Below are positions 19,697 through 61,254 of a stretch of 64,000 bases of DNA, piece after piece. Source of the stretch: Trachythela sp. YZ-2020 (lineage: Eukaryota > Cnidaria > Anthozoa > Malacalcyonacea > Clavulariidae). A program made the position numbers and the translations under genes. The stretch is taken from the NCBI GenBank assembly GCA_016169945.1, contig JADLSH010000293.1:1426001-1490000 (forward strand). The letters are read 5' to 3'. The stretch's first letter is position 1; the number at the start of each line of letters is the position of its first letter. The notes under the pieces were generated by a model. That model worked only from the letters and a program-made list of their open reading frames with translations, did not search any database and was not told where the DNA came from.

Positions 19697-21941
19697 AGTA
19701 TTCTCCCAACATTCCCTCGAGTGCATTATTACACCATAACGGCACGCGACTCGTTTTTTAATTCTTAATTATATTATAAGTAGTATCTAACGAGCAATTT
19801 GATTGGCTAATGCGCGTGCTTTATGACGCAATAAAGCACGGCCACCGTTTTTATTTTTCTCCCTTTGTCCCCGCTTGTTAAATTTTCCTCGGAATTGTCA
19901 ATACAATATGAACAAAATTATAATAGTTTTAAATCCAAAATCTGTCAGAAAGCAAGAAAAAGTAGACCTAAACGAGATGGAAAAAGCCAGCCAACAAATA
20001 ACAACGGGATCCATAAACGGCGAATAAAGATTCATAGCTGTTTCAGAGTTTGAAATATACTTTTTTGCTTGAAAGTTCGCATTCAATGGCGACAAGAAAC
20101 GCGAAAATCTGTACTATTTTGACATTTAAAGGTACAAAAACTGTATTTAAACACAAACCAAACCAAATTTATCCACAGTTCTAGGTGCAAAAAATTAAAA
20201 TTAACCATTTTGGCATTGATTTAGATAACACTATGTGTACAGTTTTTAAGCTGTCAAGATGCAACGACAAAAACCTACACAAATACGACATGTTTATGCA
20301 TTTCTTGACAGTTTGTCTGAGAAAATTTTTTAACCACCAACCACTGAATTAGCAAAAAAAAACACAAAAAATATTCAAACAGTACCTTCAAACAAAAACT
20401 GCCCGAAAAATTTGGTTAAAGATGAAAAATCAACTTGACAGTCAATGTCGTCAAAGCAGCTTGACAAAAACCCTTCGCTTTTATACCGAATCCAGGACAA
20501 CTGGGGTTTGAAATATACTTTTTTGCTTGAAAGTTCGCATTCAACGGCGAACAGGGACTGGGGAACAGGGACTGGGAACAGGGACTGGGGTTTAACCCTG
20601 TTGTTGGTTCCTGACACTTTAAAGTATTTATGTGTGGTATCTGTACGTTTGTAATTTAATTTTTCTTTTTTGTCAAATCGAAATAAAAAAAAAAAAGTGA
20701 AGCAGAACAACGAAAAACCAATCTGTCTATCATTGTGCACCATATTTGAAAAATTTTCAACAGTTTTTGCGCCTTTTTAATCCCTAATTTTTGTTGAGTT
20801 GCACGTTTTTCGCTCCTTCGCCGGCCAGAATTCAAGCGTAGTTGTTGCCAAGCAATGAAAACATTGAAAAGTTTGCGAGTGACGTCAGTGATTACATGTT
20901 AGGAGAATATCAATATTGATCTTTGAACAAAATTGTTTACTGTGCTTATCTACCACTTATAATATAAAAGAATTAAAAAAACTCGTCTTGTGCTGTTATG
21001 GTGTAATAATACAAGAGGGGGGAATGTTGGGAGAATACGATTTCCACAATTCCGAGGAAAATTTAACAAGCGGGGACAAAGGGAGAAAAAATCAAAACGG
21101 TGGCCGTGCTTTATTGCGTCATAAAGCACGCGAATTAGCCAATCAAAATGCTCGTTAAATACTACTTATAATATAAAGTATTATAAAGTTACTTATATAT
21201 TCTTCGCGTTTCTTGTCGCCGTTGAATGCGAACTTTCAAGCAAAAAAGTATATTTCAAACTCAGAAACAGCTACGAATCTTTATTCGTCGTTTATGAATC
21301 CCGTTGTTATTTGTTGGCTGGCTTTTTCCATCTCGTTTAGGTCTACTTTTTCTTGCTTTCTGACAGATTTTGGATTTAAAACTATTATAATTTTGTTCAT
21401 ATTGTATTGACAATTCCGAGGAAAATTTAACAAGCGGGGACAAAGGGAGAAAAAATCAAAACGGTGGCCGTGCTTTATTGCGTCATAAAGCACGCGAATT
21501 AGCCAATCAAAATGCTCGTTAAATACTACTTATAATATAAAGTATTATAAAGTTACTTATATATTCTTCGCGTTTCTTGTCGCCGTTGAATGCGAACTTT
21601 CAAGCAAAAAAGTATATTTCAAACTCAGAAACAGCTACGAATCTTTATTCGCCGATTATGAATCCCGTTGTTATTTGTTGGCTGGCTTTTTCCATCTCGT
21701 TTAGGTCTACTTTTTCTTGCTTTCTGACAGATTTTGGATTTAAAACTATTATAATTTTGTTCATATTGTATTGACAATTCCGAGGAAAATTTAACAAGCG
21801 GGGACAAAGGGAGAAAAAATCAAAACGGTGGCCGTGCTTTATTGCGTCATAAAGCACGCGAATTAGCCAATCAAAATGCTCGTTAAATACTACTTATAAT
21901 ATAAAGTATTATAAAGTTACTTATATATTCTTATTCCGTGT
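19697..21941. repeat. Composite inverted repeat complex
   Basis: Sequence at 19697-19745 (CGAGTATTCTCCCAACATTCCC) recurs inverted at 20998-21041. The block 19770-20104 recurs inverted in each of the tandem units to the right (21049-21941). Another fragment (GTTTGAAATATACTTTTTTGC) recurs at 20507-20545, followed by a short ACAGGGACTGGG tandem (20550-20592). The whole 2.2 kb could fold back on itself. Short open frames in it are repeat-derived and not counted as genes. Confidence 0.7.
21049..21941. repeat. 364-bp tandem repeat, about 2.4 copies
   Basis: AATTCCGAGGAAAATTTAAC starts units at 21049, 21413 and 21777, a period of 364 bases. Units are almost identical. Each contains a hairpin, CGTGCTTTAT-TGCGTC-ATAAAGCACG, and an AGCCAATCAAAATGCTCGTTA segment. 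An inverted, circularly permuted copy lies at 19770-20104. Confidence 0.85.
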
Positions 21942-29351: not shown

Positions 29352-31545
29352 ATTATTATTATTAAGTCTTTATTATTATTATTAAGTCTTTACATCAATA
29401 GTTACATCAGACGTGTAACTTTACAAAGTTAAGAAAATATTAAAATGAACTTATAACAGATATACTTACAAAGTGTTATTACTAATACAATACTAATTAG
29501 AATAATTATGTACATAATTATGTAAAAGTTAAAGTTTACTAATTTGCTACCTTTACTAATTAAAATAGTCAAAAAGACATCTATTTAAAAAGGTTCGTTT
29601 GAATCTCTCCGTCTTTATTTTCGGTAAGATAAATTCGTGTTCTCGTTCCCGTAATATTCGCTGTTTCTTGGCTGGAAGTAACTCATATAATATATGTTCT
29701 GGATTTTTCCTTATCTTATCAAATAAGCGTTTGTCTCTTTCCGCTTCGATTACCTTCGATATTTTAATGAGTTTTGTAGTGTATCCAAATCTGTGGGCTC
29801 TTTTAAAAAATTTGTCAATTCTTTCTAAATATTTTATCCCAAGGGCAGAACCCCATACTTCAATTCCATATGAGAGGAGTGACATAATCAATGAATCAAA
29901 CAATTTCGTCAGTTGTTCCATCGAATATCCATAGTATCGGCATATTCTTAAAATGTACATGCGGCTGCTAGCTTTAGTAAGTAAATTATCAATGTGCATA
30001 TCCCAACAACCGGGTTCATCTTGGAATAAAACCCCAAGTAATTTCAACCACGTTTTTCGCTCTATACCTGCAATCGGGGGTGGTGGTGGTTTTGCAGTTT
30101 TGCCACTCACGATCATTTCCCACGTTTTTGATAGGTTTAAAGACATTCTGTTTATTCTTGACCAGTCCTCAATGCTCCTTACTTCAGCAGTCGCAGAATC
30201 ACAATTTAATTTAACCGGAGCACTAACGGTCATATCATCTGCGAATTTCACCAGGAGGTTGTTACGCGGATCCTTAATTGCTATATCGTTAATCATTAAT
30301 GAGAATAAAAATGGACCGAGTACCGTACCTTGCGGTACACCCTTATTAATGTCAACGTAGCTTGTTTCAATTCCATTAATTACAACCCTTTGTCTTCTAT
30401 TTGACAAGAAACTTATGATCCAATTAATGATGTATGGGTTAATATTAGCTGTTTTTAGTTTCTCACAGAGGATGTCGTGTGGCACGGAATCAAAGGCTTT
30501 CTTGAAGTCAAATGATATTACTCGAACATGATCGGCTCCTTCATCTAACCACTTGTACCAGTTATGAAGACACATAATTAGCGCATCCGTCGTGTTTGTA
30601 CTTTCTTTATAGGCAAATTGATTCCGCTTTATCACTGATTTAAGCTCCACTGAAATCTCTTGCTTAAAAACAATTCTTTCAAATAACCTCATTATAATGT
30701 TCGTTATTGATATTGGTCTCAGCTGGTTACATTCAGCGACAGGGGATTCCTTTGGAAGTGGATTAATATTAGCATGTTTCCACAAGAAAGGGACACACTG
30801 ATGTTCCAATGAAAGATTGAAAATCTTCGTTATAACTGGAGCTAAGTATTGGGAAAATTCTTTCCATATCCAGTACGGAAGACCGTCTGGACCGGGCGAC
30901 GTTCTTTTTTGCGTTTGCAAGTATCTTTGAACAGTAGACACATCAATGGCTGGTATACAAATGCCTTCCGGTATAGGAATAAGTTCAGGTTTTCTATAAT
31001 TGTCGTCACTGTTAATTCTTTGGAAATACAGATTTATATCATGCGGGTCAATAGTTAAATTAATGTTATTATTATTCGTCTTCCTACCGGTAATGTTATT
31101 TACAGTGTCCCACCACTTCTTCGAGCCATATTTATTTTTCTTGTCATCCTTTATTGCACGAACAAGGTTTTCACGGATAAGCATGTTTATATGTTTTTGC
31201 AAATCATCGTTTACTCCCATATTAATATTTTTATTTCTTATTTTGCACAGGTGCTTGACCAAGGGGGACATATAGGGTGGGTCACGCGTAGACATTTTCA
31301 CTTTGATGAGGGGAATACAATTGTTAAATATTCCAGTGATAGTGTCATTAACTAATTTAGTTGCCTCATTAACATCATCACAATTATAAACATCACTCCA
31401 GTCGTGGAACATCAATTTTCTTTTCATTTCAATCCTTCGATGTTCTCTGACATCCCTGAAATACACTAGACTACAGAGTTCCATGAGTTTTTCATCATTG
31501 TATTTGAACTCAACTAAAACAAAGTCCTTTCAACTCAATCATATA
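29352..31545 (-). mobile_element. Non-LTR retrotransposon 4, 5'-truncated, minus strand
   Basis: Contains one long RT frame followed by a 3' UTR and an (AAT)n-type tail with an embedded AAAGACTT repeat (29352-29395 on the plus strand). The 5' end falls near the last endonuclease motif. It is related to the remnant at 4290-6625. Confidence 0.75.
29556..31484 (-). CDS. Reverse transcriptase, 642-codon open frame of non-LTR element 4
   Basis: The frame is open from about 31529 (after a TGA) to 29556, with the first ATG at 31484. It has no internal stop or visible frameshift. Upstream of the ATG the frame reads like the end of an endonuclease (FVLVEFKYNDE), so the ATG is not the natural start. 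RT motifs in order: TSPGPDGLPYWIWK (about residue 190), LRPISITNIIMRLFERIV, ISFDFKKAFDSVPHD, GVPQGTVLGPFLFSLMIND and VKFADDMTVS (about residue 425), then the thumb region and a C-terminal domain. It copies element RNA at nicked DNA. The endonuclease is missing, so it could not initiate by itself. The intact RT suggests a fairly recent insertion. Confidence 0.9.
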   Translation of the reverse strand: MELCSLVYFRDVREHRRIEMKRKLMFHDWSDVYNCDDVNEATKLVNDTITGIFNNCIPLIKVKMSTRDPPYMSPLVKHLCKIRNKNINMGVNDDLQKHINMLIRENLVRAIKDDKKNKYGSKKWWDTVNNITGRKTNNNNINLTIDPHDINLYFQRINSDDNYRKPELIPIPEGICIPAIDVSTVQRYLQTQKRTSPGPDGLPYWIWKEFSQYLAPVITKIFNLSLEHQCVPFLWKHANINPLPKESPVAECNQLRPISITNIIMRLFERIVFKQEISVELKSVIKRNQFAYKESTNTTDALIMCLHNWYKWLDEGADHVRVISFDFKKAFDSVPHDILCEKLKTANINPYIINWIISFLSNRRQRVVINGIETSYVDINKGVPQGTVLGPFLFSLMINDIAIKDPRNNLLVKFADDMTVSAPVKLNCDSATAEVRSIEDWSRINRMSLNLSKTWEMIVSGKTAKPPPPPIAGIERKTWLKLLGVLFQDEPGCWDMHIDNLLTKASSRMYILRICRYYGYSMEQLTKLFDSLIMSLLSYGIEVWGSALGIKYLERIDKFFKRAHRFGYTTKLIKISKVIEAERDKRLFDKIRKNPEHILYELLPAKKQRILREREHEFILPKIKTERFKRTFLNRCLFDYFN

Positions 31546-37284: not shown

Positions 37285-37828
37285 AAGCCAATGCAATGAT
37301 GTCAAAATCGTCAATCGTCAAGGTATTGAGAATGAGAAATAGAGCAAGAATACAAGACTGGGGACTAGTCTGACTGTCTGAGCGCATTAATTTGGCGACA
37401 AATAACCAGTATTTGGGAGATTTTTTAAAATTTCCTTTAAACTAACATTTATAGAGAGATGTTCTAACATTATGCTAATATTATGCCGATCCTGTAAGTT
37501 TATGCTAGAATTATGCTAAATTTTTCATTATGCTAATACACGTCTCCAAATGATGAAATTATGCTAAACTTGCATAATTATGCTAAATCTGGTCACACTG
37601 CCTGAGATGACAGTGACACTATCCCAGAAAACTTTGCGCACGTCGTAAGGAAACTAGAACTTTCCGCGCTTATGTAATTTATTTGAATTATTTCATGGGA
37701 GACAACTCCAACCAAAGAACACTGCTCGTATTTTGGACTATTTCAGATTTTTGTGTCATATTTTAGACTCTAAGCTTTAGGAATATAACGTTCTCTGAAA
37801 AGTTTCTCTTAAATGTATGCAGTAAACT

Positions 37829-38083
37829 ACAATCTTTGCCAGAAACTATGGGACAAATATTGAAATTCCATCAAATATCTTATGTTCAGTTTCCCCCGCG
37901 CCCCCCGTTCAATGTTGGTATCACAAAAAAGTAATACACCGCAAACGAGACATCTTCTAACATCAGCGCAACATTGAAACGGGTGGGGGGAGGGAGGGGG
38001 GAGTAATTACGTCAAAAAATGTAATAATAACTACATTTCTTCATTGCAGCAATATTGTCCCAAAGTATTATGGCAACGATTGT
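37829..38083. mobile_element. ~255-bp MITE with G-rich interior, copy outside the tandem array
   Basis: ACAATCTTTGCCAGAAACTATGGGACAA is mirrored, imperfectly, by TTGTCCCAAAGTATTATGGCAACGATTGT. The interior has C-runs then GGGTGGGGGGAGGGAGGGGGG. Three further copies lie at 43356-43610, 51468-51713 and 59918-60173. Confidence 0.75.
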
Positions 38084-38477
38084 CTATGGTTTGCGCACTC
38101 ATATATATAGTGATGTCAACGAATTGTCTTAGTGATTAATTCACTTAAAAAGTATATTTCTTCATTTAGCAGCTAATAACAGGCATTTTTCCTTTCATAT
38201 AATTATGCTTTTTTGCGGCTCTATATGTACGTTATTTTTCGGGGGGGGATGTATTTCTTGTAGTATTTTTACTTGTGAGTAAAACTGCGCTATTAACTGT
38301 AAACTTAATCACATTTCGTACATGTTTATAAGAGATGGATTTCAATTGTTTGCTCAAATTGTAGTAAAATAAGTTAAATGTCATATCGTGAGTAAAATAT
38401 AAGGATCGCATTGCAGCTTGCCTATAATGTTTTTGGAGTTTCCGGCCGCTAAGCGCGAAGGTGCGTCATAACCAAGT

Positions 38478-39476
38478 ATGTCTTCGTCGCAGGCGCAAGC
38501 GATTGATTCTGAAGCTCCAAAACAAAGATCGATTTATCTTATAACTTATAGCCAATGTGGTGAATCGGGGCTAACTAGAAAGGAATTTGGTAAAATAATA
38601 GTCGATTCATGGAAGGAATGCAGCCGCTCAAATATACTACAATGGATGGTAAGTGAAGAAACGCATCAGGACGGTGGCAAGCATTTACATATGGCAGTCA
38701 GACTTGACAAAAAAAACACGATGGCTGGCCGTAAGAAATTTCATAGACAGACGTCATGGCATAAAAGTCAACTTCTCGGACACACACGAGAATTACTTTA
38801 GCGCTTATACGTACGTCATAAAAGACGACACAGGGTATGCTCTTTCTGAGAATCACCCAGACCTCACTAATGCTAGGGCACCTCGAACGACTAATGCGAC
38901 CCAGAAACGGAAAGCGAGCGCTAAGAAGGGAGCTGCGAGTAAGAAGAAAAAGAAACGCTTGGCAGTTTACGACGTAGTTCGAATAATCCAGACTAAGGGC
39001 ATCAAGTCTCGGTTGGAGCTAATGGCTCTGGCAAGCAAATGGCAAGAACAGGGAAAGACGGACATGGCAGAGTTTGTGTCCAATCGGTGTCCGAGAGTTG
39101 TAAACGAAGCCCTAGAGACAGCACGGAACTATCCATAGCTCAAAAACGACTAGAGAGGGCAAATAAATCTAGAGTAGAGATACTTCAAGAGCAATTGACA
39201 CAGCCATGCAAGAACAACTGCGACGGATTGTGGCTGCGCTCGGCAATTCAGATTCTGGAGGGAAATGGCATATCTGTTTCAACATTCGCTGGTGCAGTAT
39301 ACGATGCTCTGCTGCGGGGCAGAGGTAAATATAGAAATATTTATATTTACGGGCCTGCTAACTGTGGGAAAACCTTTCTAATATCGCCTTTGAAACCGAT
39401 TTACGAATGCTTTGTTAATCCAGCCTCGGGTAGTTTTACGTGGGTTGGCATAGACGAAGCAGAGGTTGTATTACAA
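38478..39476 (+). pseudogene. CRESS-type Rep-like gene: HUH endonuclease plus SF3 helicase N-part, frameshifted and cut at Walker B
   Basis: Starts at ATG 38478. The first frame shows motif I (IYLITYSQ, near 38535) and the HUH motif (KHLHMAV, near 38680), then shifts in an A-run near 38710. The next frame holds the catalytic-tyrosine motif (YVIKDD, near 38810), a lysine-rich nuclear-signal-like stretch (near 38905-38960) and a helical linker, ending at 39138. A second shift near 39120 leads to the third frame with Walker A (GPANCGKT, near 39355) and the start of the Walker B region (VGIDEAEVV, near 39455). There the coding sequence meets a reverse transcriptase. Such Rep proteins nick and unwind DNA in rolling-circle replication of circular ssDNA viruses and related elements. 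It could be an endogenised viral gene or one from a transposon. No origin nonamer was seen nearby. It is dead as read. Confidence 0.75.
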
Positions 39477-41638
39477 TTTAAACAAATTTCTGCAGCGAAG
39501 TTGACTAGCATACTGAACAGTAGTATAAAGACGGGAAAGGCAGCAGGGCTTGATAAAATCACTAATAAATTACTAAAGGCTGCAGGTAATACTATATGTG
39601 AGACCTTACTTTATATATTTAACTTGGTCTTAGTCACTGGTATTTTTCCAGATGACTTAAAACAGGCTAAAGTAACTCCAATTTATAAGGAAGGTGACAA
39701 AAGTGAATGTGGGAACTATAGACAATTTCTGTAATATCGGCTATTGCAAAAATTTTAGAAAAGCTTATTTATGATCAATTAATCACCTTTCTGAATGACG
39801 AGAAAATTATCTCAAAACAACAATCGGGCTTTCGCAAACGCCACTCTACTGAAACCGCTCTCCTGCAAGTAGCAGACAAATATTTAATGAATATCGATAA
39901 AGGCTTAATAAATGGTGTCTTGTTCCTTGACCTTAAAAAAGCGTTTGATACGGTTGACCACAAAATCCTTTTAGCAAAACTAGAGCTATATGGATTTCAA
40001 GGAGTAGCTCTGAAGTTATTTAAATCGTATTTAGCCAACAGAATGCAAATATGCACAGTTCAAGGAACTAAGTCCCAAATGAACAGGATAATATGCGGAG
40101 TTCCCCAAGGATCAAACTTAGGGCCATTGTTGTTTTCGTTATATATAAATGATCTTCCAAACTGCCTTGAACAAACACAGGCTTCAATGTTTGCAGATGA
40201 TACAAATATATCAAGTACTGGTATTTCACCTGCAGATATAGAAAGGAAGATAAATAATGACTTATGTAAGGTCAATAACTGGCTAGTGGCAAACAAGCTA
40301 ACTTTAAACGTTACAAAAACTGAGTTTATGCTGATAGCCTCTAAAAGGAAATTAAAACAATTCACAGAAAACTCGCACATATTAATTGGCAGCCACACCA
40401 TTAAACAAGTGACAAATAAGAATGTACTGGGGATTACTATAGACGAGGAATTAAAATGGAATGAGAATAATGATATTCAGTGCAAAAAACTTTCTAAATC
40501 TATTGCTTTATTAAAACGAGCGAAAAGATTCGTAACTCAAACTGCACTAATTAATATGTATAATGCATTAGTTTTACCTCACTTTACATACTGCTCAAAT
40601 GTGTGGAATGATGGCAGTCGCACTCACATTGAAAAGCTATTCAAAATGCAATTTGTCCATCTAAATGGCAAAGATTCTACTCATGAAAGGATTGATTATG
40701 GTGTTCCTCAGGGATCTATTTTGGGGCCGCTCTTGTTCCTCGTGACTATTAATGACCTACCCAATGTTGTTACTAAATCACTGGTTGACATCTACGCTGA
40801 TGACACGACTCTGAGTGCGTCCGCGTCCATAGCTCATCCTTCAGTAATCCAAAACCATCTTCAACATGACCTCGACCAAGTTCTAACCTGGTCAACTACC
40901 AACAAGATGATCTTAAATCCATCTAAAACCAAGGCGCTCCTGGTAACCGGTAAAAGACTGGGGGGTAGGTTGGATTTGCACCCTCTTAACCTTACGGCTA
41001 ATGGTCTCAATATAAATCAAGTCAATTCAGAAATTTTACTTGGAGTAACACTAGACAGTAACTTGAACTTTACCGACCACGTTGATACATTATGTAAGAA
41101 AGTGTCTCAAAGAATTGGCGTCTTAAAAAACATCAGGAGAAATCTTCATATTAAAGAACGAATTTTGTTCTTCAATTCAATGATCAAGCCCGTTATGCTA
41201 TATGGCAGTCCAGTTTGGGACTCCTGCTCACGTGAAAACATCGAAAAAATCCTCAAGTTACAGAAAAGAGCTGCCCGTGTAATTTTGGAAGCAGATATCC
41301 GTGAAAGTAGCGATGCTCTTTTTAAGCAACTGAACTGGTTAACAATCTATGACGAAATGGAAATTAGGAAATGTTGTTTAATATATAAGAGAAATAATGG
41401 CTTAACTCCAAACTATTTAAATAATATGTTAGTAAGGAACGCTGATACTCATTCAAGATCGACTAGACATTGTAATGTAAACTTGGTCTGTCCTAGGTAC
41501 AAGAGAGAAACGGAAGGAGGCAGAACATTTCAGGTTTTAGGGACAAAATTATGGAATACGATACCAGTAGACATTAGGAAGAAGGAATCGTATAACTCGT
41601 TTTATAGAGCAATCCGGACTCATTATTATAACAAATAG
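39477..41638 (+). pseudogene. Chimeric double reverse transcriptase, copy 1 (RT-A fused in frame to RT-B)
   Basis: RT-A starts within the finger region (KQISAAKLTS; GKAAGLDKI near 39537), continues the Rep frame, then shifts near 39720 where one C is missing from the usual RPISV motif. From about 39722 a single frame runs to 41638. RT-A gives FLDLKKAFDTVDH (39920), CGVPQGSNLGPLL (40095) and MFADDTN (40185), with its connection region to about 40650. There, after KLFKMQ, it changes without a frame break to a different RT (RT-B), starting before its own YGVPQGSILGPLL (near 40700) and YADDTT (near 40795) and running to a normal C-terminus. Thus two palm motif sets lie in one frame. Template switching during reverse transcription is the likely cause. 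Activity is doubtful. Confidence 0.88.
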
Positions 41639-41840
41639 AGACTTTTTATCTGCATGGTTTGCATATCTTGTTTATGCACCTATAATATTTATCTATTTAT
41701 ATTGTAAATTTTGTATATAGTTTTATTGCATGTAAAATTCTTATAATACTCTATATATTTGAGGGCCACGCGTTTATCAGTGTAAACTGTTCAGTGTAAC
41801 CCTCTTGAAATAAAGTTGATTATTATTATTATTATTATAG
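41639..41840 (+). other. 3' UTR, hairpin, AATAAAGTT and (ATT)n tail of RT-B, copy 1
   Basis: GAGGGCCAC...GTGTAACCCTC (41761-41803) can pair, and is followed by TTGAAATAAAGTTGATTATTATTATT. The same end lies at 49860-49950 and 58320-58399 in the other units. Confidence 0.6.
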
Positions 41841-41901
41841 TTCGTAGTGAGAACCGTGTCGTATTGAGCTCAATGTCAATGTCACGTGTTTAATCAATAA
41901 A

Positions 41902-42921
41902 CTAGTATTTTGTTCTATAGCCCTTTCCAGCAATCACTGCGTCGATTTGTCTAGGCATACGTAATAGTAAATTATTGACAAAATCTACAGAAGTATCTCG
42001 CAATGTTTTAGAAACTCTATCCTTAAACTCCGTCCATGTTTCATGATTGATTCCCTGTGTTCGAACCTGCATCTGTAGATTGCTCTTAACTATGTGGAAA
42101 ACATTTTCAATCGGATTGAGGTCAGGGGAACGAGCAGGTATCGAGAACAACTGAGCACCTTGATCGTTGATAGCTTTCATGGCCATGGCACTTGTTTGGG
42201 AAGGGTCATTATCCATCACAAACATTTTCCTGCATCCTCATCCGTGATAACAAAGTCACTGAAATATACACCATTCATCTTTGTGTATTCCTCTACGCAC
42301 GCCACTCCCCTGTTGTACGCAATTGCAACTAGCGGTTAGCGGTTATCTTTAAACCTTCTGCCCTTTTCCTCCAGACTTTACCGTTCGGTGCCACAGCTTG
42401 CGTCATCGGCCTTGCCTTATACACGAATGAAACACCGTCCAGATAAAGGCAATAACATCGTGGAAAACCATAGGTTCATTTTGTAAATTTTTCTTACAAT
42501 CCCTTGCAAACCGTAGACGTATAACGCGCTCAGATCGGCTCATTAATCCCTTTTTTCGCGCTTGCAGATACTGAAATCCTTGACTACGCAGCTTTCGATA
42601 AAATGTTCTGTACGAAATGCCGGACATATGGAGTCCACTGTAAGCGACAAGCGATTTAATTGAGAAGCCAGGATTGTTTTCGCGTAGTTTAAGCAATGAT
42701 CTCAGAAAATGTCGTCTATCTCGAGGTGATAATTTTTTCGGCCTTCCTCGCTCGCTTTTCCTCTGATTTCGATCACTGTTTTTATTACCCAAAAGACGAC
42801 AAACCGTTGATTTTGAAACACCAGTCTTTTCTGCAATCTTTCGTAAAGAATACTTCTTCTTTAAGACAAGATACAGCACGTTCGCCCGCATTTGATCCGT
42901 AATATTTCTGTGGTAAGCCAT
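41902..42921 (-). pseudogene. Tc1-type (DD34E) transposase, copy 1, frameshifted
   Basis: The start ATG is complementary to 42919-42921 (MAYHRNITDQ). An N-terminal helix-turn-helix (YSLRKIAEKTGVSKSTVCRLL) is followed by a basic GRPKKLSPRDRR segment and a second DNA-binding helix region. The catalytic core has a first aspartate region that is frameshifted in this copy by a missing A near 42447 (copies 2 and 3 read YLDGVSF). The second aspartate is in MDNDPSQTS and the glutamate in DLNPIEN, 34 residues later, the Tc1 spacing. All three copies share a further frame loss just before MFVMDND (near 42230). It cut and pasted DNA with TA targets; the TIRs were not found. It is inactive. Confidence 0.85.
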
Positions 42922-43355
42922 TTTGATTGAGGTTTCTTTTGACTCACTTTGCATGCAAGCGCACAATTTATAGTCTAATAGCGTGTTGGTTATGCGATAC
43001 GTGTTTATCGCGTATAATCAGAAACGTCATCAAGGATGGGCTTAAAGTAATTGAACTGAAGTACCTGTGTGTCTGTGTAATCATGACTCATTGTGAAATA
43101 TGTGTAACTGTGGCAAAACGCAATCACGCTTCAATATATGACGAAGTTTCAGAATATATCATGAATGCGCAAATTTATGCAGATTTGCTAACCTTGGAAA
43201 ATAACTCTAATATAGCACAAAAACGGTACTAAACACAAGAATAATGACCTTATTTCGTAACTCTTAAAGTCAATAAATAAATCATGTAAAGTTACTGCGT
43301 ACATGACTCTGTGATCATTAAATTATTTTTATGAGTAATGGCGATGCGTTTACAG

Positions 43356-43610
43356 ACAATCTTTGCCAGAAACTATGGGACAAATATTGAAATTCCATCA
43401 AATATCTTATGTTCAGTTTCCCCCGCGCCCCCCGTTCAATGTTGGTATCACAAAAAAGTAATACACCGCAAACGAGACATCTTCTAAAATCAGCGCAACA
43501 TTGAAACGGGTGGGGGGAGGGAGGGGGGAGTAATTACGTCAAAAAATGTAATAATAACTGTATTTCTTCATTGAAGCAATATTGTCCCAAAGTATTATGC
43601 TAAAGATTGT
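43356..43610. mobile_element. G-rich MITE, copy in unit 1
   Basis: Same element as 37829-38083. This copy keeps GACGAGACATC-like and GGGTGGGGGG states seen in the outside copy, while units 2 and 3 differ. Confidence 0.75.
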
Positions 43611-43961
43611 AGATGCGACACAACAAAACATAATAGATGTTGTGTATATAATGTCTATAATCATATGCATGTAGTATACATGGCGATATATCAAAAAACA
43701 ATATTCCGTAGAAATATGTTACTTGGGCTTTTTTGCGATTTTTTGTGAAACATGTAATTTGACTTAAACACCCATAATATATTTAACCCTAAAAATCGTG
43801 TTAATTTATCACCTCTAGTGGGCTATGTTTAACACTTTTGATGGTGTCAAAATATCACCCATTATTTAGCACTATTAAGGGTGTAAATTAAGCACTTTCG
43901 CTGATGAAAGAGGTGCTATTTTAGCACCAGAAAAAAATGCATAGAGCAAACAACATTGGCT

Positions 43962-47311: not shown

Positions 47312-47595
47312 GAGCAATTGACAGCCATGCAAGAACAACTGCGACGGATTGTGGCTGCGCTCGGCAATTCAGATTCTGGAGGAAATGGCATATCTGTTTC
47401 AACATTCGCTGGTGCAGTATACGATGCTCTGCTGCGGGCAGAGGTAAATATAGAAATATTTATATTTACGGGCCTGCTAACTGTGGGAAAACCTTTCTAA
47501 TATCGCCTTTGAAACCGATTTACGAATGCTTTGTTAATCCAGCCTCAGGTAGTTTTACGTGGGTTGGCATAGACGAAGCAGAGGTTGTATTACAA
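47312..47595 (+). pseudogene. Rep-like helicase fragment, copy 2
   Basis: Same fragment as 39189-39476, lacking the HUH part. Here one-base losses (GGGG to GGG near 47437 and others) break the Walker A frame that is open in copies 1 and 3. Confidence 0.75.
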
Positions 47596-49750
47596 TTTAA
47601 ACAAATTTCTGCAGCGAAGTTGACTAGCATACTGAACAGTAGTATAAAGACGGGAAAGGCAGCAGGGCTTGATAAAATCACTAATAAATTACTAAAGGCT
47701 GCAGGTAATACTATATGTGAGACCTTACTTTATATATTTAACTTGGTCTTAGTCACTGGTATTTTTCCAGATGACTTAAAACAGGCTAAAGTAACTCCAA
47801 TTTATAAGGAAGGTGACAAAGTGAATGTGGAACTATAGACAATTTCTGTAATATCGGCTATTGCAAAAATTTTAGAAAAGCTTATTTATGATCAATTAAT
47901 CACCTTTCTGAATGACGAGAAAATTATCTCAAAACAACAATCGGGCTTTCGCAAACGCCACTCTACTGAAACCGCTCTCCTGCAAGTAGCAGACAAATAT
48001 TTAATGAATATCGATAAAGGCTTAATAAATGGTGTCTTGTTCCTTGACCTTAAAAAAGCGTTTGATACGGTTGACTACAAAATCCTTTTAGCAAAACTAG
48101 AGCTATATGGATTTCAAGGAGTAGCTCTGAAGTTATTTAAATCGTATTTAGCCAACAGAATGCAAATATGCACAGTTCAAGGAACTAAGTCCCAAATGAA
48201 CAGGATAATATGCGGAGTTCCCCAAGGATCAAACTTAGGGCCATTGTTGTTTTCGTTATATATAAATGATCTTCCAAACTGCCTTGAACAAACACAGGCT
48301 TCAATGTTTGCAGATGATACAAATATATCAAGTACTGGTATTTCACCTGCAGATATAGAAAGGAAGATAAATAATGACTTATGTAAGGTCAATAACTGGC
48401 TAGTGGCAAACAAGCTAACTTTAAACGTTACAAAAACTGAGTTTATGCTGATAGCCTCTAAAAGGAAATTAAAACAATTCACAGAAAACTCGCACATATT
48501 AATTGGCAGCCACACCATTAAACAAGTGACAAATAAGAATGTACTGGGGATTACTATAGACGAGGAATTAAAATGGAATGAGAATAATGATATTCAGTGC
48601 AAAAAACTTTCTAAATCTATTGCTTTATTAAAACAAGCGAAAAGATTCGTAACTCAAAATGCACTAATTAATATGTATAACGCATTAGTTTTACCTCACT
48701 TTACATACTGCTCAAATGTGTGGAATGATGGCAGTCGCACTCACATTGAAAAGCTATTCAAAATGCAATTTGTCCATCTAAATGGCAAAGATTCTACTCA
48801 TGAAAGGATTGATTATGGTGTTCCTCAGGGATCTATTTTGGGGCCGCTCTTGTTCCTCGTGACTATTAATGACCTACCCAATGTTGTTACTAAATCACTG
48901 GTTGACATCTACGCTGATGACACGACTCTGAGTGCGTCCGCGTCCATAGCTCATCCTTCAGTAATCCAAAACCATCTTCAACATGACCTCGACCAAGTTC
49001 TAACCTGGTCAACTACCAACAAGATGATCTTAAATCCATCTAAAACCAAGGCGCTCCTGGTAACCGGTAAAAGACTGGGGGGTAGGTTGATTTGCACCCT
49101 CTTAACCTTGGCTAATGGTCTCAATATAAATCAAGTCAATTCAGAAATTTTACTTGGAGTAACACTAGACAGTAACTTGAACTTTACCGACCACGTTGAT
49201 ACATTATGTAAGAAAGTGTCTCAAAGAATTGGCGTCTTAAAACATCAGGAGAAATCTTCATATTAAAGAACGAATTTTGTTCTTCAATTCAATGATCAAG
49301 CCCGTTATGCTATATGGCAGTCCAGTTTGGGACTCCTGCTCACGTGAAAACATCGAAAAAATCCTCAAGTTACAGAAAAGAGCTGCCCGTGTAATTTTGG
49401 AAGCAGATATCCGTGAAAGTAGCGATGCTCTTTTAAGCAACTGAACTGGTTAACAATCTATGACGAAATGGAAATTAGGAAATGTTGTTTAATATATAAG
49501 AGAAATAATGGCTTAACTCCAAACTATTTAAATAATATGTTAGTAAGGAACGCTGATACTCATTCAAGATCGACTAGACATTGTAATGTAAACTTGGTCT
49601 GTCCTAGGTACAAGAGAGAAACGGAAGGAGGCAGAACATTTCAGGTTTTAGGGACAAAATTATGGAATACGATAACCAGTAGACATTAGGAAGAAGGAAT
49701 CGTATAACCTGTTTTATAGAGCAATCCGGACTCATTATTATAACAAATAG
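47596..49750 (+). pseudogene. Chimeric double reverse transcriptase, copy 2
   Basis: Same RT-A/RT-B fusion as copy 1, with the junction near 48770. The main frame runs 48004-49266. Extra breaks occur near 49090 (G lost), 49110, 49245 (A-run), 49433 (T-run) and 49675. Private substitutions include AACAAGCG near 48633 and GACTACAA near 48073. Confidence 0.88.
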
Positions 49751-50013
49751 AGACTTTTTATCTGCATGGTTTGCATATCTTGTTTATGCACCTATAATAT
49801 TTATCTATTTATATTGTAAATTTTGTATATAGTTTTATTGCATGTAAAATTCTTATAATACTCTATATATTTGAGGGCCACGCGTTTATCAGTGTAAACT
49901 GTTCAGTGTAACCCTCTTGAAATAAAGTTGATTATTATTATTATTATTATAGTTCGTAGTGAGAACCGTGTCGTATTGAGCTCAATGTCAATGTCACGTG
50001 TTTAATCAATAAA

Positions 50014-51033
50014 CTAGTATTTTGTTCTATAGCCCTTTCCAGCAATCACTGCGTCGATTTGTCTAGGCATACGTAATAGTAAATTATTGACAAAATCTAC
50101 AGAAGTATCTCGCAATGTTTTAGAAACTCTATCCTTAAACTCCGTCCATGTTTCATGATTGATTCCCTGTGTTCGAACCTGCATCTGTAGATTGCTCTTA
50201 ACTATGTGGAAAACATTTTCAATCGGATTGAGGTCAGGGGAACGAGCAGGTATCGAGAACAACTGAGCACCTTGATCGTTGATAGCTTTCATGGCCATGG
50301 CACTTGTTTGGGAAGGGTCATTATCCATCACAAACATTTTCCTGCATCCTCATCCGTGATAACAAAGTCACTGAAATATACACCATTCATCTTTGTGTAT
50401 TCCTCTACGCACGCCACTCCCTGTTGTACGCAATTGCAACTAGCGGTTAGCGGTTATCTTTAAACCTTCTGCCCTTTTCCTCCAGACTTTACCGTTCGGT
50501 GCCACAGCTTGCGTCATCGGCCTTGCCTTATACACGAATGAAACACCGTCCAGATAAAAGGCAATAACATCGTGGAAAACCATAGGTTCATTTTGTAAAT
50601 TTTTCTTACAATCCCTTGCAAACCGTAGACGTATAACGCGCTCAGATCGGCTCATTAATCCCTTTTTTCGCGCTTGCAGATACTGAAATCCTTGACTACG
50701 CAGCTTTCGATAAAATGTTCTGTACGAAATGCCGGACATATGGAGTCCACTGTAAGCGACAAGCGATTTAATTGAGAAGCCAGGATTGTTTTCGCGTAGT
50801 TTAAGCAATGATCTCAGAAAATGTCGTCTATCTGGAGGTGATAATTTTTTCGGCCTTCCTCGTTCGCTTTTCCTCTGATTTCGATCACTGTTTTTATTAC
50901 CCAAAAGACGACAAACCGTTGATTTTGAAACACCAGTCTTTTCTGCAATCTTTCGTAAAGAATACTTCTTCTTTAAGACAAGATACAGCACGTTCGCCCG
51001 CATTTGATCCGTAATATTTCTGTGGTAAACCAT
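50014..51033 (-). pseudogene. Tc1-type transposase, copy 2
   Basis: The N-terminal frame is open through YLDGVSF to a stop at 50440. The second half (50014-50337) carries MDNDPSQTS and DLNPIEN. The shared frameshifts near 50340-50460 remain. Starts MVYHRN where the other copies have MAYHRN. Confidence 0.85.
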
Positions 51034-51467
51034 TTTGATTGAGGTTTCTTTTGGCTCACTTTGCATGCAAGCGCACAATTTATAGTCTAATAGCGTGTTG
51101 GTTATGCGATACGTGTTTATCGCGTATAATCAGAAACGTCATCAAGGATGGGCTTAAAGTAATTGAACTGAAGTACCTGTGTGTCTGTGTAATCATGACT
51201 CATTGTGAAATATGTGTAACTGTGGCAAAACGCAATCACGCTTCAATATATGACGAAGTTTCAGAATATATCATGAATGCGCAAATTTATGCAGATTTGC
51301 TAACCTTGGAAAATAACTCTAATATAGCACAAAAACGGTACTAAACACAAGAATAATGACCTTATTTCGTAACTCTTAAAGTCAATAAATAAATCATGTA
51401 AAGTTACTGCGTACATGACTCTGTGATCATTAAATTATTTTTATGAGTAATGGCGATGCGTTTACAG

Positions 51468-51713
51468 ACAATCTTTGCCAGAAACTATGGGACAAATATT
51501 GAAATTCCATCAAATATCTTATGTTCAGTTTCCCCGTGCCCCCGTTCAATGTTGGTATCACAAAAAGTAATACAACGCAAACGATACATCTTCTAACATC
51601 AGCGCAACATTGAAACGGGTGAGGGGAGGGGGAGTAATTACGTCAAAAATGTAATAATAACTGTATTTCTTCATTGAAGCAATATTGTCCCAAAGTATTA
51701 TGCTAAAGATTGT
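51468..51713. mobile_element. G-rich MITE, copy in unit 2
   Basis: Shorter than the others because several homopolymer runs are reduced (GGGGAGGGGGAG). Shares CAACGCAAACGATACATC with unit 3. Confidence 0.7.
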
Positions 51714-52719
51714 AGATGCGACACAACAAAACATAATAGATGTTGTGTATATAATGTCTATAATCATATGCATGTAGTATACATGGCGATATATCAAAAA
51801 CAATATTCCGTAGAAATATGTTACTTGGGCTTTTTATGATTTTTGTGAAACATGTAATTTGACTTAAACACCCATAATATATTTAACCCTAAAATCGTGT
51901 TAATTTATCACCTCTAGTGGGCTATGTTTAACACTTTTGATGGTGTCAAATATCACCCATTATTTAGCACTATTAAGGGTGTAAATTAAGCACTTTCGCT
52001 GATGAAAGAGGTGCTATTTTAGCACCAGAAAAAATGCATAGAGCAAACAACATTGGCTTTATAGACGTTTTGGGACAAATTCATGGTCATGGTCATGGTC
52101 ATGGTCATAATCATAGTCTTTACGGCATTAATTATCTGTAATCCGCTTTGAATTCCTAGACGCGTTCTTGCCGTTTCGCTTTGCCTTCGGTCATTATCAT
52201 AAGTGCAATCCTTGTGTTCTCTTGCCACAGCATTGTTTTCAATATTTGTGGAATGATCTTCTTTGTTCTCTACAATATTGGTATCGACACCATTGACATT
52301 CCCGGCTATAACACTAGCATTGTTTTTCTTTAGGGAATCGTCCGGATGGATTCTTTCGGTTAGCTATTTTGTTATTTTACTTCCCTCGAGATTTGATGCC
52401 TTGCTTTTCATATTCCATGCAATTTTAAGGTCTTCATTTAGAGTATTATGTCTACTGATCGAAAATAATAAATTAATAATTAGTAAATAATAATTCATCC
52501 AAATATATTAACCCACTGACACAGCTGATATACGCCCGTGTCACAGTGTGTTATTAATAACGAGAAGATTTACAGTTTTAAAAGCATTAAAAAGGACTCT
52601 TGCAGCGGTTAACAAAGTTGTCAATTTCATGTATCTTTAACAACAACACATTATATTATGCAGACAAGAGTCTAGAGAAATTTCTAATTTTGAAGAACAT
52701 TGACTAATTGACGTTGACT

Positions 52720-53207
52720 CAAAACGCCCATCACCATATTTATTATTTTAAATGGTCTACATTGGTCATTCCCAAAGGCAAGGCAAGTGCGCGCGCGGCA
52801 AGCAAGCGCGCAAGTGGCAAGTAAGGCGCGGTTGACACAAAAATCATGCCTTACCAATTATTATTTTAAATGGTCTAACTTCAGAATATTTTCACATGTT
52901 CCTTTGGAGTGGGAGTAGTGTAAGTAGATTGTAGTAAATTAAGTGAGTGGGTGGTAGTGGAAAAGTAAGAAGTGAAGTAGAGGGTGAGTAAGTAAGTAAG
53001 TAAAGAGTGGGAGTAAGTAGGTGGAAGTAGTGAGTGGAGTAAGTGAGTGTGTGAAGTGGTAGAAGTGGGTGTGGTAGAAGAAAGTGAGTGGGTAAGGTAA
53101 AATTAAAGTGTAAGTAAGTAAGTAAGTAAAGTGGTGTGAGTAAGTGAGTAAAGTAAAGTAGGTAGTAAGTAAGTAAGTAAGCAAGTGCAAGTAAGCAAGT
53201 GGGGATG
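52720..53207. repeat. Expanded and scrambled GTAA/GTGAGT microsatellite, unit 2
   Basis: Where unit 1 has a short (GTAA)n tail, this unit has nearly 500 bases of GTAAGT/GTGAGT-like sequence. The segment CCTTACCAATTATTATTTTA also recurs within it or in broken form. This may be real expansion or poor consensus in a low-complexity run. A 162-codon minus frame across it (Leu/Thr/Tyr-rich) is repeat-derived. Confidence 0.7.
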
Positions 53208-55754: not shown

Positions 55755-56042
55755 GAGCAATTGACACAGCCATGCAAGAACAACTGCGACGGATTGTGGC
55801 TGCGCTCGGCAATTCAGATTCTGGAGGGAAATGGCATATCTGTTTCAACATTCGCTGGTGCAGTATACGATGCTCTGCTGCGGGGCAGAGGTAAATATAG
55901 AAATATTTATATTTACGGGCCTGCTAACTGTGGGAAAACCTTTCTAATATCGCCTTTGAAACCGATTTACGAATGCTTTGTTAATCCAGCCTCGGGTAGT
56001 TTTACGTGGGTTGGCATAGACGAAGCAGAGGTTGTATTACAA
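55755..56042 (+). pseudogene. Rep-like helicase fragment, copy 3
   Basis: Walker A (GPANCGKT) and the start of Walker B are in one open frame with RT-A (55761-56270), as in copy 1. No HUH domain. Confidence 0.78.
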
Positions 56043-58200
56043 TTTAAACAAATTTCTGCAGCGAAGTTGACTAGCATACTGAACAGTAGTATAAAGACGG
56101 GAAAGGCAGCAGGGCTTGATAAAATCACTAATAAATTACTAAAGGCTGCAGGTAATACTATATGTGAGACCTTACTTTATATATTTAACTTGGTCTTAGT
56201 CACTGGTATTTTTCCAGATGACTTAAAACAGGCTAAAGTAACTCAATTTATAAGGAAGGTGACAAAGTGAATGGGAACTATAGACAATTTCTGTAATATC
56301 GGCTATTGCAAAATTTTAGAAAAGCTTATTTATGATCAATTAATCACCTTTCTGAATGACGAGAAAATTATCTCAAAACAACAATCGGGCTTTCGCAAAC
56401 GCCACTCTACTGAAACCGCTCTCCTGCAAGTAGCAGACAAATATTTAATGAATATCGATAAAGGCTTAATAAATGGTGTCTTGTTCCTTGACCTTAAAAA
56501 AGCGTTTGATACGGTTGACCACAAAATCCTTTTAGCAAAACTAGAGCTATATGGATTTCAAGGAGTAGCTCTGAAGTTATTTAAATCGTATTTAGCCAAC
56601 AGAATGCAAATATGCACAGTTCAAGGAACTAAGTCCCAAATGAACAGGATAATATGCGGAGTTCCCCAAGGATCAAACTTAGGGCCATTGTTGTTTTCGT
56701 TATATATAAATGATCTTCCAAACTGCCTTGAACAAACACAGGCTTCAATGTTTGCAGATGATACAAATATATCAAGTACTGGTATTTCACCTGCAGATAT
56801 AGAAAGGAAGATAAATAATGACTTATGTAAGGTCAATAACTGGCTAGTGGCAAACAAGCTAACTTTAAACGTTACAAAAACTGAGTTTATGCTGATAGCC
56901 TCTAAAAGGAAATTAAAACAATTCACAGAAAACTCGCACATATTAATTGGCAGCCACACCATTAAACAAGTGACAAATAAGAATGTACTGGGGATTACTA
57001 TAGACGAGGAATTAAAATGGAATGAGAATAATGATATTCAGTGCAAAAAACTTTCTAAATCTATTGCTTTATTAAAACGAGCGAAAAGATTCGTAACTCA
57101 AACTGCACTAATTAATATGTATAATGCATTAGTTTTACCTCACTTTACATACTGCTCAAATGTGTGGAATGATGGCAGTCGCACTCACATTGAAAAGCTA
57201 TTCAAAATGCAATTTGTCCATCTAAATGGCAAAGATTCTACTCATGAAAGGATTGATTATGGTGTTCCTCAGGGATCTATTTTGGGGCCGCTCTTGTTCC
57301 TCGTGACTATTAATGACCTACCCAATGTTGTTACTAAATCACTGGTTGACATCTACGCTGATGACACGACTCTGAGTGCGTCCGCGTCCATAGCTCATCC
57401 TTCAGTAATCCAAAACCATCTTCAACATGACCTCGACCAAGTTCTAACCTGGTCAACTACCAACAAGATGATCTTAAATCCATCTAAAACCAAGGCGCTC
57501 CTGGTAACCGGTAAAAGACTGGGGGGTAGGTTGGATTTGCACCCTCTTAACCTTACGGCTAATGGTCTCAATATAAATCAAGTCAATTCAGAAATTTTAC
57601 TTGGAGTAACACTAGACAGTAACTTGAACTTTACCGACCACGTTGATACATTATGTAAGAAAGTGTCTCAAAGAATTGGCGTCTTAAAAAACATCAGGAG
57701 AAATCTTCATATTAAAGAACGAATTTTGTTCTTCAATTCAATGATCAAGCCCGTTATGCTATATGGCAGTCCAGTTTGGGACTCCTGCTCACGTGAAAAC
57801 ATCGAAAAAATCCTCAAGTTACAGAAAAGAGCTGCCCGTGTAATTTTGGAAGCAGATATCCGTGAAAGTAGCGATGCTCTTTTAAGCAACTGAACTGGTT
57901 AACAATCTATGACGAAATGGAAATTAGGAAATGTTGTTTAATATATAAGAGAAATAATGGCTTAACTCCAAACTATTTAAATAATATGTTAGTAAGGAAC
58001 GCTGATACTCATTCAAGATCGACTAGACATTGTAATGTAAACTTGGTCTGTCCTAGGTACAAGAGAGAGAAACGGAAGGAGGCAGAACATTTCAGGTTTT
58101 AGGGACAAAATTATGGAATACGATACCAGTAGACATTAGGAAGAAGGAATCGTATAACTCGTTTTATAGAGCAATCCGGACTCATTATTATAACAAATAG
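56043..58200 (+). pseudogene. Chimeric double reverse transcriptase, copy 3
   Basis: A frame of 540 codons (56271-57893) spans RT-A and RT-B with both palm motif sets. It closes at 57893 because a T-run has one T fewer than copy 1. A GAGA duplication near 58065 breaks the C-terminal part again. The RT-A to RT-B switch is near 57211, at the same base as in the other copies. Confidence 0.88.
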
Positions 58201-58462
58201 AGACTTTTTATCTGCATGGTTTGCATATCTTGTTTATGCACCTATAATATTTATCTATTTATATTGTAAATTTTGTATATAGTTTTATTGCATGTAAAAT
58301 TCTTATAATACTCTATATATTTGAGGCCACGCGTTTATCAGTGTAAACTGTTCAGTGTAACCCTCTTGAAATAAAGTTGATTATTATTATTATTATTATA
58401 GTTCGTAGTGAGAACCGTGTCGTATTGAGCTCAATGTCAATGTCACGTGTTTAATCAATAAA

Positions 58463-59483
58463 CTAGTATTTTGTTCTATAGCCCTTTCCAGCAATCACTG
58501 CGTCGATTTGTCTAGGCATACGTAATAGTAAATTATTGACAAAATCTACAGAAGTATCTCGCAATGTTTTAGAAACTCTATCCTTAAACTCCGTCCATGT
58601 TTCATGATTGATTCCCTGTGTTCGAACCTGCATCTGTAGATTGCTCTTAACTATGTGGAAAACATTTTCAATCGGATTGAGGTCAGGGGAACGAGCAGGT
58701 ATCGAGAACAACTGAGCACCTTGATCGTTGATAGCTTTCATGGCCATGGCACTTGTTTGGGAAGGGTCATTATCCATCACAAACATTTTCCTGCATCCTC
58801 ATCCGTGATAACAAAGTCACTGAAATATACACCATTCATCTTTGTGTATTCCTCTACGCACGCCACTCCCCTGTTGTACGCAATTGCAACTAGCGGTTAG
58901 CGGTTATCTTTAAACCTTCTGCCCTTTTCCTCCAGACTTTGCCGTTCGGTGCCACAGCTTGCGTCATCGGCCTTGCCTTATACACGAATGAAACACCGTC
59001 CAGATAAAAGGCAATAACGTCGTGGAAAAACATAGGTTCATTTTGTAAATTTTTCTTACAATCCCTTGCAAACCGTAGACGTATAACGCGGTCAGATCGG
59101 CTCATTAATCCCTTTTTTCGCGCTTGCAGATACTGAAATCCTTGACTACGCAGCTCTCGATAAAATGTTCTGTACGAAATGCCGGACATATGGAGTCCAC
59201 TGTAAGCGACAAGCGATTTAATTGAGAAGCCAGGATTGTTTTCGCGTAGTTTAAGCAATGATCTCAGAAAATGTCGTCTATCTCGAGGTGATAATTTTTT
59301 CGGCCTTCCTCGTTCGCTTTTCCTCTGATTTCGATCACTGTTTTTATTACCCAAAAGACGACAAACCGTTGATTTTGAAACACCAGTCTTTTCTGCAATC
59401 TTTCGTAAAGAATACTTCTTCTTTAAGACAAGATACAGCACGTTCGCCCGCATTTGATCCGTAATATTTCTGTGGTAAGCCAT
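58463..59483 (-). pseudogene. Tc1-type transposase, copy 3
   Basis: As in copy 2: N-terminal frame to 58890 and C-terminal frame 58463-58786, with the same shared break between them. A few private substitutions (SRSDR for SRSER, FFHDV for VFHDV). Confidence 0.85.
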
Positions 59484-59917
59484 TTTGATTGAGGTTTCTT
59501 TTGACTCACTTTGCATGCAAGCGCACAATTTATAGTCTAATAGCGTGTTGGTTATGCGATACGTGTTTATCGCGTATAATCAGACACGTCATCAAGGATG
59601 GGCTTAAAGTAATTGAACTGAAGTACCTGTGTGGCTGTGTAATCATGACTCATTGTGAAATATGTATAACTGTGGCAAAACGCAATCACGCTTCAATATA
59701 TGACGAAGTTTCAGAATATATCATGAATGCGCAAATTTATGCAGATTTGCTAACCTTGGAAAATAACTCTAATATAGCACAAAAACGGTACAAAACACAA
59801 GAATAATGGCCTTATTTCGTAACTATTACAGTCAATAAATATATTATGTAAAGTTACTGCGTACATGACTCTGTGATCGTTAAATTATTTTTATGAGTAA
59901 TGGCGATGCGTTTACAG

Positions 59918-60173
59918 ACAATCTTTGCCAGAAACAATGGGACAAATATTGAAATTCCATCAAATATCTTATGTTCAGTTTCCCCCGTGCCCCCCGTTCA
60001 ATGTTGGTATCACAAAAAAAGTAATACAACGCAAACGATACATCTTCTAACATCAGCGCAACATTGAAACGGGTGAGGGGAGGGAGGGGGGAGTAATTAC
60101 GTCAAAAAATGTAATAATAACTGTATTTCTTCATTGAAGCAATATTGTCCCAAAGTATTATGCTAAAGATTGT
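59918..60173. mobile_element. G-rich MITE, copy in unit 3
   Basis: Same element as 43356-43610; shares GGGTGAGGGGAGGG with unit 2. Confidence 0.72.
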
Positions 60174-61254
60174 AGATGCGACACAACAAAACATAATAGA
60201 TGTTGTGTATATAATGTCTATAATCATATGCATGTAGTATACATGGCGATATATCAAAAAACAATATTCCGTAGAAATATGTTACTTGGGCTTTTTTGCG
60301 ATTTTTTGTGAAACATGTAATTTGACTTAAACACCCATAATATATTTAACCCTAAAAATCGTGTTAATTTATCACCTCTAGTGGGCTATGTTTAACACTT
60401 TTGATGGTGTCAAAATATCACCCATTATTTAGCACTATTAAGGGTGTAAATTAAGCACTTTCGCTGATGAAAGAGGTGCTATTTTAGCACCAGAAAAAAA
60501 TGCATAGAGCAAACAACATTGGCTTTATAGACGTTTTTGGGACAAATTCATGGTCATGGTCATGGTCATGGTCATAATCATAGTCTTTACGGCATTAATT
60601 ATCTGTAATCCGCTTTGAATTCCTAGACGCGTTCTTGCCGTTTCGCTTTGCCTTCGGTCATTATCATAAGTGCAATCCTTGTGTTCTCTTGCCACAGCAT
60701 TGTTTTCAATATTTGTGGAATGATCTTCTTTGTTCTCTACAATATTGGTATCGACACCATTGACATTCCCGGCTATAACACTAGCATTGTTTTTCTTTAG
60801 GGAATCGTCCGGATGGATTCTTTCGGTTAGCTATTTTGTTATTTTACTTCCCTCGAGATTTGATGCCTTGCTTTTCATATTCCATGCAATTTTAAGGTCT
60901 TCATTTAGAGTATTATGTCTACTGATCGAAAATAATAAATTAATAATTAGTAAATAATAATTCATCCAAATATATTAACCCACTGACACAGCTGATATAC
61001 GCCCGTGTCACAGTGTGTTATTAATAACGAGAAGATTTACAGTTTTAAAAGCATTAAAAAGGACTCTTGCAGCGGTTAACAAAGTTGTCAATTTCATGTA
61101 TCTTTAACAACAACACATAATATTATGCAGACAAGAGTCTAGAGAAATTTCTAATTTTGAAGAACATTGACTAATTGACGTTGACTTTAAAAATCGCCTT
61201 ACCAATTATTATTTTAAATGGTCTAACTTCAGAATATTTTCACATATTCCTTTG

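Follow-up and report, generated by a model that had tools for sequence, protein, structure and literature searches.

A window of 64,000 nucleotides from the cnidarian Trachythela sp. YZ-2020 (contig JADLSH010000293.1, positions 1,426,001 to 1,490,000, here G000:C195) was analysed for a broken, virus-like Rep gene and the element that carries it. Positions 38478–39474 of the window hold a Rep gene with an HUH nuclease domain and a superfamily 3 (SF3) helicase domain, spread across three reading frames. A reading of the letters alone (the sequence-only reading) had listed its motifs in order across these frames, and all of them were found in place: motif I (YLITYSQ, 38535–38555, frame 3), HLH (38682–38690, frame 3), a Y-x-x-K motif (YVIK, 38812–38823, frame 1), a lysine-rich stretch at about 38919–38958 (frame 1) and Walker A (GPANCGKT, 39351–39374, frame 3). 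Two frame shifts disrupt the gene, of which nothing is kept beyond the residues EVVL. From 39475 the sequence enters a reverse transcriptase (RVT_1, E 5e-46 for 39722–41635) and the element resumes at 41841, in agreement with the earlier proposal of a truncated retroelement at Walker B; the inserted sequence is a 5′-truncated long interspersed nuclear element (LINE). About 820 bp of the element are gone at this junction, with copy L011 as the reference, and no 3′ third of Rep was found elsewhere in the window (relative P0121 as query).

The Rep remnant probably belongs to a copy, at 37830–43609, of a two-gene DNA transposon, a copy that is dead, since its Rep is frame-shifted and cut and its transposase is in pieces. 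Its features are as follows, with a TA outside both terminal repeats (TRs).

37828–37829, no strand: left TA, target-site duplication
37830–38082, plus strand: 5′ TR, an imperfect palindrome with a CAATC start and a GATTG end
38478–38798, plus strand: Rep remnant in frame 3, HUH domain, with motif I and HLH inside
38704–39123, plus strand: Rep remnant in frame 1, with YVIK, the lysine-rich stretch and a helical linker
39120–39474, plus strand: Rep remnant in frame 3, SF3 helicase as far as Walker B, with Walker A inside
39475–41840, plus strand: LINE insertion (reverse transcriptase, RVT_1) in place of the last third of Rep and the spacer next to it; element homology ends at 39474 and restarts at 41841
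42061–42921, minus strand: remnant of the element's Tc1/mariner-like DDE transposase, in several frames
43357–43609, plus strand: 3′ TR, direct relative to the 5′ TR and 97% identical to it
43610–43611, no strand: right TA, target-site duplication

Single Pfam models were compared with the three Rep frames, and Gemini_AL1 (E 2.8e-4), PPV_E1_C (E 0.0049) and Parvo_NS1 (E 0.023) were matched, all weakly and under curated cut-offs, while the middle piece (frame 1) by itself matched no Pfam family; the profile search proposed with the sequence-only reading therefore gave Rep and SF3 families at low scores and nothing for the middle. PHROGs gave weak matches to unknown or unrelated families, nothing more. 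A chance origin of the motifs is excluded because the pieces are homologous to many proteins and a single relative, P0005, aligns in successive parts with all three frames (74%, 79% and 81% identity), and this family homology bears out the assignment to a Rep with HUH and SF3 domains.

Copies, terminal repeats and TA insertion

A DNA search of the 578 Mb Trachythela assembly with Rep gave 21 matches, counting the window's own and those of its tandem array (17 of 17 candidates scored), and eleven further 10-kb loci were examined (L009–L016 and L018–L020). The element consists of two direct TRs of about 250 bp, Rep on the plus strand and a convergent transposase on the minus strand, in the order TA-TR-Rep-transposase-TR-TA; five copies (window, L012, L014, L019 and L020) retain the two TRs together with the two genes, intact or as remnants. 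The copies fall into subfamilies. Homology between subfamily A copies starts at window 37825–37829, the start of the 253-bp imperfect palindrome, and both TRs with broken genes are found in L012 and the window. In subfamily B, L014 has TRs at 3777–4030 and 6985–7232, an open Rep of 447 residues and a truncated transposase with one stop, while L015 has an open transposase of 318 residues, a Rep frame of 443 residues read from TTG with an altered end, the 3′ TR and a piece of the 5′ TR. L019 has both TRs, a Rep with 7 stops and a transposase in pieces, and L020 both TRs (the 3′ one without its far end), Rep pieces in several frames and a transposase in pieces. L009, L010, L011, L013, L016 and L018 are partial copies. 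Over 1.7 kb, L014 and L015, which lie at different places, share 98.8% identity, indicating recent movement. The search of the same genome for further copies and their flanks, proposed earlier, thus yielded an open Rep and the element's ends, which are the TRs with TA. L009 and L010 (C212:384500–404300) form a local duplication of about 9 kb with two subfamily A copies and extra Rep fragments.

The L015 transposase matches DDE_3 (E 6.8e-14) with 34 residues between the second D and the E (DD34E), and a Tc3-type helix-turn-helix scores 34.9 in the window remnant, above the Pfam cut-off of 31.5, and 31.4 in L015, 0.1 bit under it. The DD34E triad with a Tc-type helix-turn-helix, the outer terminal inverted repeats (CAATC...GATTG arms, self-complementary over about 25–34 nt) and the TA target-site duplication are all as in Tc1/mariner elements; a single transposase gene, which is usual there and not defining, is what the element departs from, with Rep lying inside the ends in five copies. 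Outer ends of the form TA|CAATC...GATTG|TA were found in 13 of 14 examined, a count that omits the truncated 3′ end of L020 and the window's array copies and in which L009 and L010, as local duplicates, are not independent. On the inner side, the 5′ TR is followed by TC in subfamily A (the bases are changed there in L012) and by TA in subfamily B, and the 3′ TR is preceded by GA wherever it is whole. The exception among the 14 outer ends is the 5′ end of L019, where at L019:3649–3686 the 5′ TR abuts a tail of about 38 bp of another TR without TA, an arrangement resembling the junction of two elements.

As DNA, the TRs fold better than their shuffles (z −4.1 and −5.1, the latter for window 37829–38088; 0 of 200 shuffles equal), so that the origin hairpin anticipated by the sequence-only reading has a candidate in the palindromic TRs, though one without a conserved CRESS (circular Rep-encoding single-stranded DNA) nonanucleotide. 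What subfamily A and B TRs have in common is limited to short blocks, for the most part the central stem and a G-rich run. This run, which follows the central stem, fits a G-quadruplex pattern in 4 of the 5 TRs tested (TRs of the window, L014 and L054). TR orientation is identical in 14 of 15 tested, the 5′ TR of L011 being inverted in place.

TRs were found at 44 or more places in the same genome (at least 44, with 40 of 62 candidates scored), and 12 of the 30 loci examined have no element interior within 1.5 kb on either side. From these 12, L028 and L035 (flanks in common with L027 and L026) and L033 (a cut TR, maybe part of L015) were dropped. Such solo TRs have TA on both sides in 8 of 9 cases and, in L038, on one side as read. 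The solo TR L034 sits in a LINE, and its flanks joined through one TA make an unbroken reverse-transcriptase frame of 82 residues. Among the matches listed, this joined frame aligns gap-free over the junction to seven distinct LINE stretches (L014, L015, L009 and four in the window), the best at 47% over 58 residues (E 2e-16); in the remaining rows, L044 is gapped away from the junction and one match ends before it. This argument from paralogous sequences supports duplication of the TA. Taken together, the ends, the TA flanks and the transposase homology make it well supported that a Tc1/mariner-type transposase would integrate the element at TA.

Derivatives with no Rep were also found. L053 and L054 (subfamily C) have the structure TR-transposase-TR, and L053 is a tandem dimer with the middle TR in common and units 99.6% identical. 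Rep was probably lost from both rather than originally absent, because 50 bp near their 5′ TRs match the Rep gene at its 3′ end (84% in L054, 78% in L053). L049 and L050 look like Rep-less copies, judged on 1.5 kb of flank.

Rep relatives and linkage of Rep with the transposase

With the SF3 piece as query, 143 of 162 candidate proteins matched at E<=0.01 (best E 7.9e-61; best 120 of the 143 listed), and a family profile built from 16 relatives matched 1100 of 6385 candidates at the same threshold (best 120 of the 1100 listed). The few named relatives of the SF3 piece among the matches listed are from marine animals, namely Paramuricea clavata, Actinostola, Exaiptasia and Asterias, the nearest of these being Paramuricea at 79% over the piece. 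No Rep relative was found in the scans made of viral contigs, in a phage search with the window SF3 piece or in a plasmid search with P0002. Among prokaryote genome contigs there was a single match, short and weak (L017), over the Walker A region, in the Myxococcales metagenome-assembled genome contig QKPP01000067.1 (38%, residues 260–311, E 2e-5).

In a modelled relative, the HUH domain resembles geminivirus Rep, and the best fold match overall is Rep68 of adeno-associated virus (AAV) 2. The helicase is closest to AAV Rep, parvovirus (B19) NS1 and papillomavirus E1, with few CRESS helicases in the list compared, and Parvo_NS1 is above its cut-off for both P0020 and the L014 Rep. On these models, Rep is a predicted chimera of a geminivirus-like HUH nuclease and a parvovirus/papillomavirus-like SF3 helicase, and the earlier label of a CRESS-type Rep accordingly fits the nuclease and probably not the helicase. 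HUH motifs I, II (HxH) and III (YxxK), which define CRESS Reps, are all present, and the L014 Rep carries in one open frame motif I, HFH, YVTK, Walker A, Walker B, a late Arg and CxxC. Across 33 aligned relatives H68 (the second HUH histidine), Y109, K112, K293 and D330 show no variation, and H66 is present in 90% or more.

Between the L014 Rep and subfamily A pieces, synonymous divergence (dS) was mostly not computable and was taken as saturated, while nonsynonymous divergence (dN) was 0.12–0.45 for most pieces and 0.53–0.61 for three with stops; for the L015 transposase against subfamily A pieces dN was 0.25–0.57. All these values are rough and non-independent, many pieces coming from broken or duplicated copies.

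Linkage of the two genes outside the Trachythela genome was assessed from the match lists of Rep (240 rows) and transposase (120 rows), with contigs paired by equal size. Six contig sizes are common to both lists, three of them 5 kb or more, compared with a mean of 0.015 and a maximum of 1 for such large contigs in 400 shifted controls. In one large-contig pair, P0006 shares 71% identity with the window Rep and P0240 79% with the L011 transposase. From these equal sizes we infer that Rep and transposase are adjacent in other genomes as well.

Tandem array and other features of the window

The 3′ half of the element is repeated along the window in units of about 8.1–8.4 kb, mostly 98–99% identical, which begin inside Rep at 39189 and span 39189–64000, with a fourth unit starting just past the window (G000:C195:1490044).

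47312–52750, plus strand: second tandem copy of the element 3′ half, with Rep fragment, LINE, transposase remnant and a TR at 51468–51713
55755–61312, plus strand: third tandem copy of the element 3′ half, with a TR at 59918–60173

The Rep fragments at 47312 and 55755 were rejected as independent copies, as they are units of this array. The array could be an assembly error; its units differ from each other, including by small indels. Elsewhere in the window, a 364-bp tandem repeat (2.4 copies, 99% identical) lies at 21046–21932 with inverted copies near 19755–20105. More LINE-like frames lie at 454–3232, 4209–5739, 10249–10992, 13798–15878 and 29556–31529, several of them with reverse-transcriptase motifs and apparently of different lineages.

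Proposed mechanism and known systems

TA-directed insertion of the Tc1 type and a conserved two-gene unit are supported by the sequences compared. Our best reading, to which we would give a probability of roughly 0.6, is that the transposase integrates the element while Rep amplifies copies of it from the hairpin TRs. The DD34E transposase would recognise the CAATC...GATTG ends and insert the element at TA with duplication of the TA. Rep may nick the hairpin of the palindromic TR, unwind the unit and copy it up to the second, directly repeated hairpin, and the resulting extrachromosomal or tandem copies would become substrates for insertion by the transposase. Derivatives lacking Rep would depend on the transposase, and Rep would be dispensable or provided in trans. 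We take release of TR-bounded copies to be the most likely step because CRESS-type replicons are released from just such an arrangement of two directly repeated origins, as known from geminivirus work; the tandem dimers and solo TRs fit such a step.

Several observations weigh against this reading. Rep-less L053 and L054 have spread, and Rep is therefore dispensable in cis for insertion. Solo TRs and tandem dimers are also explicable by homologous recombination between direct repeats. Within subfamily B, omega ranges from 0.16 to 1.8 on few changes, giving no clear sign of present selection, and the contigs under 5 kb common to Rep and transposase matches (3, against a control mean of 2.3 and maximum of 7) are at chance level and were set aside as support for linkage. 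The nonanucleotide NANTATTAC was found in subfamily A TRs only, among five TRs tested. Finally, one inverted TR in 15 is a poor fit to parvovirus-style flip/flop at even odds, which was kept as no more than a weak hint.

The spread of subfamily C with no Rep suits a Tc1/mariner-type transposon that has captured a viral Rep as cargo or accessory and that moves by plain cut-and-paste, Rep having no part in copying and serving instead in regulation, in DNA binding or in excision repair; TA insertion and the DD34E transposase account for the insertions observed. The Rep protein is nevertheless conserved between subfamilies and its catalytic motifs are kept across the 33 aligned relatives, and we consider this explanation unlikely, at perhaps one chance in four by our judgement of the evidence. 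A virus-like episome, related to CRESS viruses or parvoviruses, that passes from host to host with a Tc1-type transposase as its integrase and leaves proviruses as genomic copies would explain the chimeric Rep of viral type, the hairpin ends and the relatives in several marine animals. Against it, L015 could not accommodate a capsid gene, since TR and Rep are separated by 364 bp, Rep and transposase by 525 bp and transposase and TR by 437 bp, and the viral contigs scanned, the phage search and the plasmid search held no relative; we regard it as improbable. An endogenous virus was likewise rejected as the principal explanation, given the missing capsid room, the TA ends and the transposase, and of the two origins first offered, endogenised virus or Rep-bearing transposon, the second is favoured by the TRs, TA ends, transposase, solo TRs and Rep-less derivatives. 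Chance nesting of an old Tc1 element in or beside an endogenous Rep element is highly improbable: nesting is frequent among mobile elements and a LINE sits in the window copy, but order, orientation and TR kind are alike in subfamilies A and B (Reps about 64% identical at the DNA level), copies without Rep are bounded by the same kind of TR, and large contigs elsewhere are common to Rep and transposase matches.

More tentatively, the element with a transposase that integrates and a Rep that amplifies may represent a hybrid class of transposon in marine animals, in which Rep replicates the element out on direct hairpin repeats and a Tc1/mariner-type transposase brings it back in, possibly forming a link between cut-and-paste transposons and small DNA viruses. 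The accepted view is that Tc1/mariner elements increase in number through cut-and-paste movement and repair by the host, and that Reps of the viral type work in viruses, plasmids and a small number of HUH transposon groups. Among the matches listed from the open-licence literature searched, no description was found of a Rep plus Tc1 element, one combining a Tc1/mariner-type transposase with a small-DNA-virus-type Rep. If true, the reading would describe a DDE transposon with its own replicator, in which rolling-circle-type amplification is coupled to DDE integration, and a model for the entry of Rep genes into genomes and for module exchange between viruses and transposons. It would also be a warning that a virus-like Rep gene in the genome of a marine animal may be taken in error for an endogenous virus. 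With its CRESS-like nuclease and parvovirus/papillomavirus-like helicase, the chimeric Rep is also relevant to how those virus groups arose, a subject discussed in PMC6668415.

Compared with the Reps of CRESS-DNA viruses and geminiviruses, that of the element carries a helicase whose closest folds are AAV Rep, parvovirus NS1 and papillomavirus E1, and unlike CRESS-DNA viruses the element is TA-flanked with a transposase gene, has no capsid room (L015) and no conserved nonanucleotide. It is like parvoviruses and AAV in its best fold match (AAV2 Rep68), its palindromic ends and its Parvo_NS1 scores (P0020, L014 Rep), but differs in TRs of one orientation (14 of 15) with no flip/flop mixture, in YxxK and a geminivirus-like HUH domain, and in being inserted at TA next to a gene for a DDE transposase. 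Replitrons and Helitrons are likewise eukaryotic transposons with an HUH protein. Replitrons, also treated in PMC13231165, have direct terminal repeats of 5–11 bp and target-site duplications of 2–8 bp, and Helitrons have neither terminal inverted repeats nor target-site duplications, according to PMC10741241. By that account the element differs from Replitrons in its direct TRs of about 250 bp, its TA insertion and its DDE transposase gene, and from Helitrons in its TA duplication and inverted outer arms. With the Tc1/mariner DD34E elements it has DDE_3, the Tc3-type helix-turn-helix, the 34-residue spacing, TA duplication and inverted outer ends in common. Intruder, a close sibling family, is 1.5–1.7 kb long with a single open reading frame (PMC7731502); the element described here adds a Rep gene and is bounded by two repeats of about 250 bp that are direct and internally palindromic.
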